A stretch of DNA of 64,000 nucleotides, taken from positions 310,001-374,000 of the forward strand of contig JAQUGR010000001.1 in the NCBI GenBank assembly GCA_028683955.1, in the 5' to 3' direction. Both the position numbers and the translations under genes were made by a program. The stretch comes from Bacillota bacterium (GTDB lineage: Bacteria > Bacillota > TC1). Below the pieces are notes generated by a model, which worked only from the letters and a program-made list of their open reading frames with translations, did no database searches and was not told the origin of the DNA. Position 1 is the stretch's first letter; each line of letters starts with the position of its first letter. This document shows, piece after piece, positions 18,058 to 22,156 of the stretch.

Positions 18058-21000
18058 ATGAAAGATAAATGGTTCGATTTTATTAATCGATTAGATCTTG
18101 AAGAACATATAAAAAATAAACTTATAGCAGGAACTAATATAGAATTAAAAGCTAATAAAGAGAAAAGAAAACTTGATATCTCATTAGATTTAAAAGAATT
18201 TATTAGTCTTGAAGATATAATTGGGGCTGAAAAAACAATTGGCTTATTCTTTCAGCCCTACAATGTGAGTGTTATGCCTTTTTATATAGAAAATAGTAAT
18301 ATAGATCTTGTGGGCATAACAAAATATTTGAACTATAGAATAACAAATGAATTACCTTTTTTTCCATTAGGGTCATTAAACTTTTGTAAAGATAATAATA
18401 CTATAGAAGTAGTCTTGCCATCTGATTTTCATTCTGAAATATATAGTAAAAAAGGTATACATAAGCAAATTGAGAAATTACTAAATAAAACAATTTGTAA
18501 TAAAGATTTAATTAAAATTAAAGCAATAAAAAGTGATAACTACTCATCAAGATTAAAAGATATAAAGAATAGAACTCAAGATGCAATTGACGAAAACAAA
18601 AATACAATTATTAATAAACCTGTAAAAGTTAAAAAAATAAGTGCTGAAAATGCAAATAAAGTAAATGAAGAGGGGATTATACTAGGAACTTTAATTGCAG
18701 ATGAAATAATCCCGGCTGAAGCCAAGGCTGAAACAATAAAAAATATTGCAATGTTTGGTAAAATTCAAGATTTAGATATAAGAAACATTAATAAAGATAA
18801 ATTTCTCATTTCCTTTAATCTAATATGGAAAAAATCTGGTATACCATGTAAATTATTTATCAAAAAAAATAGCAAACAACCTGTTTTAAAAAATGGGTTA
18901 ATTGTATCTATACGAGGTAAACTAGAATATGATAATTATAAACATGATTTTGTTTTAGGTATAAAAGATATAAATGAATATAAAATAACTGCCCCAAGAG
19001 ATAATGCAGATACTAAACGTGTTGAATTACATTTACATACTAAAATGAGCTTTCTAGATGCAAATATTGACTTGAAGGATTTATTTAAAAGAATGGAAGA
19101 TATGGGTCATGATACAGTAGCCATAACTGATCATGGAGTAGTTCAAACATTCCCAGAAGCTTATGAACTAACAAAAGATAGGAATATTAAAGTCATCTAT
19201 GGAGTTGAAGGATATTTATTTGATGATATTAAAAGTGATAATTTAAAAGGTAAAACCTACCATGTAATCATACTAGTAGAAAATCAAATTGGTCTAAAAA
19301 ATTTATATACATTAATTAGTGAATCTCATCTTAATTATTTTTATAGAAAACCAAGAATACCAAAAAGTTTACTAATAAAACATAGAGAAGGTTTGATCAT
19401 AGGAAGTGCCTGTGAAGCTGGTGAAGTTTTTAAAGGTATTGTAAATAAACTTGATGAAGAAAATATGCAGGATATAGTTGAATTTTATGATTACTTGGAA
19501 ATACAACCAATATCAAATAATGAATATATGGTTAGAAATGGCCTTGTTGAAACTAATTCAGATTTAATTAATTTTAATAAAGATGTTATAAAATGGGGTG
19601 AAAGATCCAATAAACCAGTAGTAGCTACAGGAGACGTGCATTTTCTTGATAAAGAAGACAGCATTTATAGGGCTATCTTAATGAAAAGCAAAGGTTTTTC
19701 TGATGTTATTCAACCTGATCTTTATTATAGAAGTACTGAAGAAATGTTATTAGAATTTGATTATTTAAGCAAGGAAAAGGCATATGAAGTGGTTGTTAAA
19801 AATCCGAGGATTATTGCTAACAGAGTTGGGAAGATTAGACCTGTACCTGTTGGATTATTTACACCTAAAATTGAAGGTGCAGAGGAACAAGTTAAAGAGA
19901 TAACTTATAGGACAGCGCATGAAATTTATGGGGAAAAGTTACCTGATATAGTTGAAGCAAGAATTGAAAAGGAATTAAACTCTATAATTAGTAATGGTTT
20001 TGCTGTACTGTATTTAATTGCGCATAAATTAGTTAAAAAATCAAATGAAGATGGTTATGTTGTTGGATCTAGAGGATCTGTTGGATCATCATTTGTAGCA
20101 ACATTAATGGGAATTACTGAAGTTAACCCATTAAGTCCTCATTATATTTGTCCTTCTTGCTGTCATAGTGAATTTGTTTTTGATGAATATGATTGCGGAA
20201 TTGAACTACCGCCTAAAAAATGTCCTAATTGTAATGCAGCTATGAGAAAAGATGGGTTTAACATTCCCTTTGAAACTTTCCTGGGTATTGATGGAGATAA
20301 AATTCCAGATATAGATTTAAATTTCTCTGGTGAGTATCAAGGTAAGATTCATAAATATACTGAAGAACTCTTTGGTAAAGGTAATGTATTCAAAGCTGGT
20401 ACAATAAGTACAGTAGCTGAGAAAACTGCAATTGGCTATGTTAAAAAATATTATGAAGAAGAAAATATTGGTAATCCAAGAGATATTGAATTAATTTCCT
20501 TGGCATCTGGTTGTGTAGGTGTTAAGAAAACTACAGGGCAACATCCTGGAGGTCTAGTTATAGTACCTGAAAATATTGATATACATGACTTCACTCCTGT
20601 ACAAAGACCGGCAGATGATATAAACTCTGACATCACTACTACACATTTTGATTATCATTCTATAGATAGTTGTTTAGTAAAATTGGATTTATTAGGACAT
20701 GATGATCCTACTATGATTAAATATTTAGAAGAAATGACAGGCATAAAAGCTGAAGAAATACCACTTGATGATGAAGATACAATTTCTTTATTTAGATCAA
20801 ACAAGAAATTAGAACTTAGAGAAGATTTTGTGGAAACAGGGAGTTTAGGTTTACCAGAGTTTGGAACAGGTTTTGTTAGAAAAATGTTAAAAGATACTAA
20901 ACCTAAGGTTTTTTCTGATTTAATAAGAATTAGTGGATTCTCGCATGGTACTGATGTTTGGCTAAACAATGCTAAAGATTTAATATTAAGTGGAAAAGTT

Positions 21001-21720
21001 AAACTTAAGGAAGCTATTTCTACAAGAGACGATATTATGATATATTTATTAGGTAAGGGTTTGAAAGACAAAGTAGCATTCAAAATAATGGAGGATGTTA
21101 GAAAAGGTAGAAAAGTAAAACCTGAATATGAAGAACAAATGATTGAAAATAATGTTCCTCAATGGTATATAGATTCATGTAATACAATTTCATATATGTT
21201 TCCAAAAGCTCATGCTACTGCATATGTTATTATGGCCTTTCGTCTAGGTTATTTTAAAATTAACTTTAAAGAGGCATTCTATGCAAGTTATTTTAGTGTT
21301 AGAGGAGATGCTTTTGATTTAAATTTATTTAAAGACCAAGAAACGGTAAAAAGTAACCTTGAAAGATTGAAGCTTGAAACCTTTTTAAATGCTAGAGAAA
21401 AAGAATTGAAAAACATTTTAGAAATTGGATATGAAATGTATTTGAGAGATGTTGTTTTTACTCCAATAAGTCTTTATAAATCAAAAGCTAAAAGATTTAT
21501 TGTTTCACCTGAAGGCTTAATACCACCATTTTCAACAATACCAGGTTTGGGAGATAAAGTTGGTGATAATATTATAAGAGAAAGGTTGATAGGACCTTTC
21601 TTATCAATAGAAGAATTACAAAGAAGATGCAAAATTAATAACACATTAATAGAAGAAATGAAGAAGTTGGGAATTTTAGACGGATTAGTACAAAGTGCAC
21701 AACTATCTTTATTTGATTAA
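18058..21720 (+). CDS. polC: DNA polymerase III PolC, lacking the 3'-5' exonuclease domain
   Basis: PolC is the replicative polymerase of low-GC Gram-positives. Visible domains: N-terminal region (1-~200), OB fold (~225-310), PHP domain (321-~530), a zinc-binding region (C698, C701, C713, C722, C725), the catalytic aspartates D751 and D753 in KIPDIDLNFSGEY, nucleotide-binding GSRGSVGSS, and a C-terminal helix-hairpin-helix region. It is 1220 residues, against ~1437 in B. subtilis. The difference lies inside the PHP domain: after VIYGVEGYLFDD (379-390) the chain passes through ~9 residues straight to YHVIILVENQIGLKNLY (401-417), where the DnaQ-like exonuclease normally sits. No ExoI 'DVETTG' motif occurs anywhere. 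PHP ligand candidates H325, H327, D358, H359, E384, H402, C452, D526 and H528 are retained. The gene begins 7 bases after proS. Confidence 0.95.
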   Translation: MKDKWFDFINRLDLEEHIKNKLIAGTNIELKANKEKRKLDISLDLKEFISLEDIIGAEKTIGLFFQPYNVSVMPFYIENSNIDLVGITKYLNYRITNELPFFPLGSLNFCKDNNTIEVVLPSDFHSEIYSKKGIHKQIEKLLNKTICNKDLIKIKAIKSDNYSSRLKDIKNRTQDAIDENKNTIINKPVKVKKISAENANKVNEEGIILGTLIADEIIPAEAKAETIKNIAMFGKIQDLDIRNINKDKFLISFNLIWKKSGIPCKLFIKKNSKQPVLKNGLIVSIRGKLEYDNYKHDFVLGIKDINEYKITAPRDNADTKRVELHLHTKMSFLDANIDLKDLFKRMEDMGHDTVAITDHGVVQTFPEAYELTKDRNIKVIYGVEGYLFDDIKSDNLKGKTYHVIILVENQIGLKNLYTLISESHLNYFYRKPRIPKSLLIKHREGLIIGSACEAGEVFKGIVNKLDEENMQDIVEFYDYLEIQPISNNEYMVRNGLVETNSDLINFNKDVIKWGERSNKPVVATGDVHFLDKEDSIYRAILMKSKGFSDVIQPDLYYRSTEEMLLEFDYLSKEKAYEVVVKNPRIIANRVGKIRPVPVGLFTPKIEGAEEQVKEITYRTAHEIYGEKLPDIVEARIEKELNSIISNGFAVLYLIAHKLVKKSNEDGYVVGSRGSVGSSFVATLMGITEVNPLSPHYICPSCCHSEFVFDEYDCGIELPPKKCPNCNAAMRKDGFNIPFETFLGIDGDKIPDIDLNFSGEYQGKIHKYTEELFGKGNVFKAGTISTVAEKTAIGYVKKYYEEENIGNPRDIELISLASGCVGVKKTTGQHPGGLVIVPENIDIHDFTPVQRPADDINSDITTTHFDYHSIDSCLVKLDLLGHDDPTMIKYLEEMTGIKAEEIPLDDEDTISLFRSNKKLELREDFVETGSLGLPEFGTGFVRKMLKDTKPKVFSDLIRISGFSHGTDVWLNNAKDLILSGKVKLKEAISTRDDIMIYLLGKGLKDKVAFKIMEDVRKGRKVKPEYEEQMIENNVPQWYIDSCNTISYMFPKAHATAYVIMAFRLGYFKINFKEAFYASYFSVRGDAFDLNLFKDQETVKSNLERLKLETFLNAREKELKNILEIGYEMYLRDVVFTPISLYKSKAKRFIVSPEGLIPPFSTIPGLGDKVGDNIIRERLIGPFLSIEELQRRCKINNTLIEEMKKLGILDGLVQSAQLSLFD

Positions 21721-21733
21721 AAGGAGGTAAAAT

Positions 21734-22156
21734 TTGAGAAACGTAGCTTTTTTCTTGACACCAAAACACGAGTTAGCATATTTAAATAAGGATTCTACTA
21801 TACGTCAGGCTATTGAAAAATTTGAAAACCATGGACCATTTTTAGAAATTATAGTTTTAGATAATGAAGGAAGATTTGTTGGCATAATTAGTGCTAAAGA
21901 TGTACTTTTAGCTTTTAAAAAAATATCTGGATTAAATTTCGAAAATTCTCATGTACATAAGATTAAAGATTTACATTATGACAAAAATGTTATAACTGTA
22001 AATATCGATACTAGTTCAGATGTATTAGTAGAAATAAGTAAGGTGCAAAATATAATTCCTGTTATAGATGGGGAAAATAGATTTATCGGTATAGTAAGAA
22101 GAGCTAATCTATTATTCTATTATTACCAGAAAGCGGGTATAAACGAAGATGAGTAG
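21734..22156 (+). CDS. CBS-domain pair protein
   Basis: A 140-residue protein made of two CBS motifs and little else (FVGIISAKDVLLAF near 50-65; FIGIVRRANLLFYY near 115-130). CBS pairs bind adenosine nucleotides such as AMP, ATP or c-di-AMP and act as energy sensors; the ligand cannot be told here. The start is TTG at 21734 with AAGGAGGT directly after the polC stop. It overlaps the malic enzyme gene by 8 bases, which hints that it may sense or regulate metabolism rather than replication (inference). Confidence 0.85.
   Translation: MRNVAFFLTPKHELAYLNKDSTIRQAIEKFENHGPFLEIIVLDNEGRFVGIISAKDVLLAFKKISGLNFENSHVHKIKDLHYDKNVITVNIDTSSDVLVEISKVQNIIPVIDGENRFIGIVRRANLLFYYYQKAGINEDE

Follow-up and report, generated by a model that had tools for sequence, protein, structure and literature searches.

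The window analyzed here, a 64,000-nucleotide stretch of the genome of a Bacillota bacterium, carries on its forward strand a polC gene (18058..21720) that encodes an exonuclease-less PolC-type DNA polymerase III alpha subunit of 1220 amino acids. The protein scores above the cut-offs of two family models, each matched over the whole protein (TIGR01405, 1315 bits, cut-off 1043.45; NF001688, 1437 bits, cut-off 873). Pfam identifies a PHP domain (PF02811) at residues 323–477, polymerase domains, and a C-terminal HhH domain, and no RNase_T/DEDDh domain (PF00929) was found in this protein by the same search. A predicted OB-fold region (approximately residues 225–310; 18730..18987), supported by predicted strands and by OB-fold matches of the structural model, precedes the PHP domain. 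Based on structural matches to polymerase PHP domains, the latter probably extends over residues 319–566 (19012..19755; boundaries approximate). The active-site aspartate pair D751/D753 lies in the motif PDIDLNFS (20308..20316) and is invariant in the alignment. D877 (20686–20688) is presumably the expected third active-site aspartate. At the C-terminus, QLSLF (residues 1215–1219; 21700..21714) fits the beta-clamp motif QxxLF of PolC (PMC3919608). Judged from the sequence, the polymerase site and the clamp motif look fully functional. Downstream of polC are a gene for a small CBS-domain-like protein (21734–22156) and a malic-enzyme-like gene, both named from their translations. In B. subtilis, polC is followed by rimP; the polC of the window has other neighbors.

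The OB fold before the PHP domain, the HhH domain, and the clamp motif are features of PolC, and only the inserted DEDDh exonuclease of the typical PolC form is absent. Because an exonuclease-less variant of PolC is already known, this absence does not affect the assignment to the family. The protein corresponds to that variant as described by Timinskas et al. (PMC3919608), namely a PolC core without the Exo insertion in a genome that also encodes DnaE1.

The metal ligands of the PHP domain were assigned according to a published scheme (PMC3666897, Table 1), in which the ligands of Geobacillus kaustophilus PolC are H346, H348, D355, H380, E405, H620, C670, N743, and H745. The candidate equivalents in the window PolC are H325 and H327 (19030..19038), D334 (19057..19059), H359 (19129..19134, together with the preceding D358), E384 (19207..19209), H402 (19261..19263), C452 (19411..19413), and D526 and H528 (19633..19641), which form the complete pattern HHDHEHCDH. 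The spacing of these ligands is 2, 7, 25, 25, loop, 50, 74, and 2 residues, compared with 2, 7, 25, 25, exonuclease, 50, 73, and 2 in G. kaustophilus. The first-pass annotation had proposed a full set of nine metal ligands that included D358 in place of D334. All nine residues that it named are present at those positions, but D358 is a conserved aspartate that adjoins ligand H359 and lies outside the published scheme, so it was rejected as a ligand. The third ligand is assigned as D334 because its spacing and alignment match those of D355 in G. kaustophilus, and with this replacement the set of nine is complete, as had been claimed. Accordingly, one relative (L043) with a glutamate at position 358 was dropped as an exception, and D42 was replaced by D18 as a ligand column in the DnaE1 alignment.

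An AlphaFold2 model of residues 225–1220, based on 61 alignment rows, was used for two fold searches. The mean pLDDT is 91.4 and the pTM is 0.84; in most of the PHP domain the pLDDT is about 95. The model, which is itself metal-free, matches the exonuclease-deleted G. kaustophilus PolC 3F2B with a TM-score of 0.94 (Z 48.1, rmsd 2.1 Å over 972 residues) and was superposed on the metal-bound structures 3F2B/3F2C at 2.1 Å. Its match to Enterococcus faecium PolC (9QPC) has a Z-score of 53.8 and an rmsd of 1.9 Å over 980 residues. The match to 5LEW, which we take to be DnaE1 of Mycobacterium tuberculosis, has a Z-score of 33.7 and an rmsd of 3.5 Å over 785 residues. Residues 1–87 of the model match the OB folds of SSB and PriB.

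In place of a DEDDh exonuclease of about 200 residues, the window PolC has a 17-residue loop between E384 and H402 (residues 385–401; 19210..19260). This interval has 204–219 residues in 86 exonuclease-containing PolC rows and 12–39 residues in 86 exonuclease-less rows (except for one with 84), and it likewise has 17 residues in the DnaE1 encoded by the same genome. Together with the absence of PF00929, these lengths confirm the earlier description of this PolC as exonuclease-less. In M. tuberculosis DnaE1, the loop at this insertion site borders the route by which DNA reaches the PHP site (PMC5636811), and the alignments indicate that in exonuclease-less PolC this loop at the PHP entrance is back to the length found in DnaE. 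The exceptional 84-residue loop (L050, genome G075) is rich in Ala, Asp, and Glu, is of low complexity, and lies exactly at the exonuclease position. No DEDDh domain was found in G075, so the loop may be what is left of an insert or a substitute for one.

Among the 101 relatives sampled, 78 have a PolC above the family cut-off. The gene lacks the exonuclease domain in 49 of these genomes, runs through the domain in 26, and is cut by contig ends in three that were left unclassed (G053, G083, and G090), such that 49 of the 75 genomes whose PolC could be classed have the exonuclease-less form. The other 23 relatives have no PolC match above the cut-off, although at least one of them (G040) contains a fragmented PolC. 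Exonuclease-less PolC with a complete predicted PHP site is widespread in these Clostridia-like bacteria. Matches were also found in a phage collection (H1–H10), in which several short phage-labeled records contain near full-length PolC-like proteins with 46–50% identity to the window PolC. These records may represent bacterial contamination or carried host genes.

The exonuclease domain has been lost or gained repeatedly. The trait changed 9 times on a 96-row tree of core columns (at least 6 on supported branches) and 13 times on each of the 172-row and 243-row trees (at least 9 on supported branches), and these counts are approximate because the 243-row FastTree phylogeny gave long-branch warnings (L174, L082, and L034) and possibly contains a false join of L080 and L030. 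The PHP site is intact in every exonuclease-less row across these changes. A tree rooted with DnaE1 has a very long stem (2.18) and a support of 72 for the first ingroup split. Loss is favored over gain by indirect signs only, namely the use of a single insertion site, the retention of all five DEDDh residues in 86 of 86 exonuclease domains examined, and the correlation between exonuclease and core identities (Spearman 0.56). The intact residues and the correlation fit vertical inheritance with repeated loss.

For the comparison of the nine ligands, PolC sequences were collected from the genomes of relatives and from named genomes, and duplicates and fragments were removed. Contig fragments (L084–L087 before the first alignment and L084–L089 later), sequences with missing ligand columns (L140, L166, L169, and L170), and four duplicates (L249, L250, L296, and L283) were dropped, and 75 further PolCs were added from part of a list of about 150 places. 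The final set comprises 243 distinct PolCs that cover all nine columns, including 119 without and 124 with the exonuclease domain. The pattern HHDHEHCDH is present in 231 of them. It is found in all 119 exonuclease-less PolCs, catalytic aspartate included, and in 112 of the 124 exonuclease-containing ones. The exceptions are 11 sequences with an Asp-to-Asn replacement at position 8 and a single NHDYEHCDH. Each of the 243 PolCs has a complete PHP site, an exonuclease domain, or both. The Asn-type sequences cluster with Bacilli-type proteins and require one to two changes on the 243-row tree. One of them (L180) is from Metabacillus; for those other than the named ones, the Bacilli label is presumptive. 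The NHDYEHCDH sequence (L172) is an exonuclease-containing clostridial PolC from a Vallitaleaceae MAG with two altered ligands and is the sole clear case of PHP decay outside the Asn-type group in this set.

These patterns do not favor a specific link between the complete PHP site and the absence of the exonuclease. The comparison of ligands across PolCs with and without the domain had been suggested in the first-pass annotation as a check, and the site is equally intact in exonuclease-containing PolCs of the clostridial type. Such equal conservation is one half of what that annotation had named as evidence against its proposal, the other half being a lack of activity in both groups; the one PolC PHP domain reported inactive, that of G. 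kaustophilus, lacks the catalytic aspartate. The complete ligand set therefore appears to be the default of the PolC family, and the aligned residues identify it neither as a response to exonuclease loss nor as a marker of exonuclease-less PolC. Tighter conservation of the PHP domain after exonuclease loss was not found, as PHP identity is approximately equal at matched polymerase identity, and the residues around the ligands have conservation values of 0.844 in exonuclease-less and 0.849 in exonuclease-containing Asp-type rows. The strongest differences between the two groups are found mainly in columns of the loop itself and beside H402 (391–398 and 403), rather than at the metal ligands. 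In addition, a phylogeny-corrected association between an intact PHP site and the absence of the exonuclease was not significant; nine pairs on starred branches were available and nearly all were uninformative.

Position 8 of the ligand pattern distinguishes the exonuclease-less PolCs from the PolC PHP domain reported inactive. In M. tuberculosis DnaE1, the PHP domain is the proofreader, and activation of the attacking water has been proposed for D226 at this position; the D226N mutant still binds its metals but has no exonuclease activity left (PMC5636811). The PHP domain of G. kaustophilus PolC is reported to have no exonuclease activity, and its sole ligand replacement is Asp to Asn at position 8 (PMC3666897). 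The inactive natural domain and the inactivating mutant thus share the same residue, and the exonuclease-less PolCs all have Asp. Sites of the pattern HHDHEH[C/H]DH are called active, the PHP domain of Bacilli PolC is described as often inactive, and most Clostridia are said to have three active proofreaders (PMC12926913). In the literature found, the G. kaustophilus enzyme is the only PolC whose PHP domain is reported as assayed, with no clostridial PolC and no biochemical datum for any exonuclease-less PolC among the reports.

The reading that we prefer, to which we assign a probability of roughly 0.55, is that the PHP domain of the window PolC is an active metal-dependent 3′–5′ exonuclease that proofreads the synthesis of its own polymerase. 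Under this reading, the protein would be an ordinary replicative PolC in which the inserted DEDDh exonuclease has been lost and a catalytically complete PHP domain retained. Its nine ligands (H325 to H528) would bind three metals, D526 would activate the attacking water as suggested for D226 in M. tuberculosis DnaE1, and the PHP domain would remove mismatched 3′ ends left by this polymerase. The architecture, the complete ligand set, the predicted fold, their recurrence, and the genomes with no detectable DEDDh exonuclease are observations, from which we infer the bound metals, the nuclease activity, and the proofreading role in the cell.

The same genome encodes a DnaE1 (L009, 1229–4669) whose PHP site is complete, as are those of all 30 DnaE1 rows that cover the nine columns (31 rows examined, own genome included). 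Given this second intact PHP domain, that of PolC need not be the proofreader. DnaE1 may instead be the main high-fidelity replicase, with its own PHP domain proofreading and mending the errors of PolC in trans, while the PHP site of PolC is kept for other reasons. A role of DnaE1 as the genome replicator, with PolC used in special situations only, has been raised before (PMC3919608), and the 23 relatives with no PolC match above the cut-off suggest that PolC may be dispensable in this group. We consider this explanation rather unlikely, although it is the main alternative. It does not explain why all 119 exonuclease-less PolCs keep the nine ligands with the catalytic aspartate whereas this aspartate is lost in Bacilli PolC, and the seemingly functional polymerase site and clamp motif also argue against it. 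Apart from these considerations, the DnaE1 matches in L203 (G010), L211 (G008), and G028:C17 each contain one in-frame TAG, and the open frame in L203 begins after the first PHP motif, such that its gene start may be broken or misassembled.

Alternatively, the metal site may be structural, stabilizing a large polymerase with no nuclease role. The PHP domain of E. coli Pol III has a structural role and its mutants are less stable (PMC3666897), the metal-ligand mutants D23N and D226N of M. tuberculosis DnaE1 also have lower stability (PMC5636811), and the equal conservation with and without the exonuclease domain is consistent with such a role. However, the fold persists in E. coli Pol III and in PolC of Bacilli even where ligands or the catalytic aspartate are missing, so structure alone does not demand Asp at position 8. 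D226N retains its metals and loses its activity, yet no exonuclease-less PolC has given up this aspartate. A purely structural site is thus an improbable explanation.

A proofreader could also be supplied by a separate DEDDh protein. The PF00929 search detected no DEDDh domain in 22 of the 101 relatives, 15 of which belong to the 49 with exonuclease-less PolC (G002, G003, G005–G008, G021, G023, G024, G029, G033, G044, G068, G072, and G075, the last identified by elimination and confirmed with a second profile). Completeness is 92% or higher for 13 of these 15 genomes, and three of the 15 (G006, G023, and G029) consist of one contig each. The second profile, built from PolC exonuclease domains and the two DEDDh proteins of the window's genome, was also empty for 13 of the 15 and gave weak partial matches for G005 and G024, with E-values of 3.8e-4 and 0.88, respectively. 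At least one PF00929 match is present in the other 34 exonuclease-less genomes, and in five of them (G022, G042, G043, G084, and G089) the sole matches are in helicase-sized frames of 889–978 amino acids. In the class to which the window belongs, any match is found in four of 10 genomes. For 12 named exonuclease-less genomes, no DEDDh match was found in Mogibacterium RGIG2296, Syntrophomonadaceae STF2_222, and Peptostreptococcaceae 5_8_m_bin10; the match in Clostridiales S5-A14a is limited to a stretch of 42 positions (E 8e-4), and the single match in Moorella thermoacetica lies in a frame of 969 amino acids.

The window's own genome encodes two DEDDh proteins, one of 318 amino acids with a C-terminal BRCT domain and one of 178. 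The former passes the broad model TIGR00573, and otherwise neither reaches a curated NCBIfam cut-off for epsilon. The gene of the 318-amino-acid protein (L007, 1872–2828; G000:C7) is probably on a mobile element, as its neighbors encode an integrase of the phage type and a Cro/C1-type regulator. The other nine genomes of the class have no PF00929 match as strong as that of this protein. Relocation of the exonuclease domain as a PolC-derived trans subunit was considered and is not supported, because the two proteins are no closer to PolC exonuclease domains than those domains are to each other, and the mobile-looking setting of one gene is a further point against it. Proofreading in trans by a DEDDh exonuclease, as epsilon does for DnaE of E. 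coli, draws on these two proteins and on the 34 genomes with matches, and we regard it as very improbable in view of the genomes with none or with helicase-sized matches only, the sparse matches in the window's class, the setting of the larger gene, and the failure of both proteins to reach any specific epsilon cut-off.

In the 15 exonuclease-less genomes with no detectable DEDDh domain, the PHP domains of PolC and DnaE1 are the only recognized proofreaders left. These genomes and the complete sites strengthen the earlier, plausible proposal that PHP may be the proofreader. Proofreading by the PHP domain of the window PolC is likely from the sequence features, with the PHP domain of DnaE1 as a possible substitute.

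The first-pass annotation further described the loss of the exonuclease as a change of proofreading module within the PolC family. This was overstated, since the PHP site is no different in clostridial PolCs that carry the exonuclease, and the exonuclease-less form looks instead like a fallback on a pre-existing nuclease. The ancestral clostridial PolC may have combined a DEDDh and a PHP proofreader, of which later lineages would each have dropped one. Many clostridial lineages would have dropped DEDDh recurrently (in at least nine changes) and kept the ancient PHP domain as the proofreader of PolC itself, leaving some cells with no DEDDh exonuclease and with two C-family polymerases that are both proofread by PHP domains. 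Bacilli would have followed the mirror path, keeping DEDDh with a PHP domain disabled at the catalytic aspartate. We would give this scenario even odds.

Exonuclease-less PolC itself is already known. The form described in Clostridia and Negativicutes (Timinskas et al., PMC3919608) has the same OB, PHP, polymerase core, and HhH domains with no Exo insertion, likewise occurs beside DnaE1, and belongs to a family in which the nine-ligand site is conserved as a group. The exonuclease-less share given there is 6% of PolCs and 16% of the systems with PolC and DnaE1, compared with the 49 of 75 genomes found here. In the available text of PMC3919608 and PMC12926913, PHP is not stated to be the proofreader of exonuclease-less PolC, and the former calls the division of labor and the proofreading of the clostridial PolC and DnaE1 system experimentally uncharacterized. 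The present analysis adds the repeated exonuclease changes on supported branches, the intact PHP site throughout the exonuclease-less sequences, and the DEDDh-free genomes. Exonuclease-less PolC provides a clean test case, with one polymerase, one intact PHP site, and a single residue (position 8) that sets it apart from the PolC PHP domain reported inactive, and its repeated natural occurrence, including in the cultured M. thermoacetica, supplies independent replicates. If the PHP domain proofreads here, this mode of proofreading would extend to PolC, and a single residue would account for its having been overlooked in the Bacilli enzymes.

Three known proteins are further close points of comparison. 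DnaE1 of M. tuberculosis has the same nine-residue pattern with Asp at position 8, which belongs to an intrinsic proofreader in that enzyme (PMC5636811), and differs from the window PolC in being a DnaE-type polymerase with a longer loop of 29 residues and a weaker overall structural match. E. faecium PolC (9QPC) has a close fold and the same domain order and differs by the Exo domain inside its PHP domain. G. kaustophilus PolC (3F2B/3F2C) has the same fold and eight of the nine ligands, with N743 in place of the catalytic aspartate. The crystallized G. kaustophilus protein is an engineered exonuclease deletion (PMC12592400), and nature thus appears to have made the same cut in exonuclease-less PolC.
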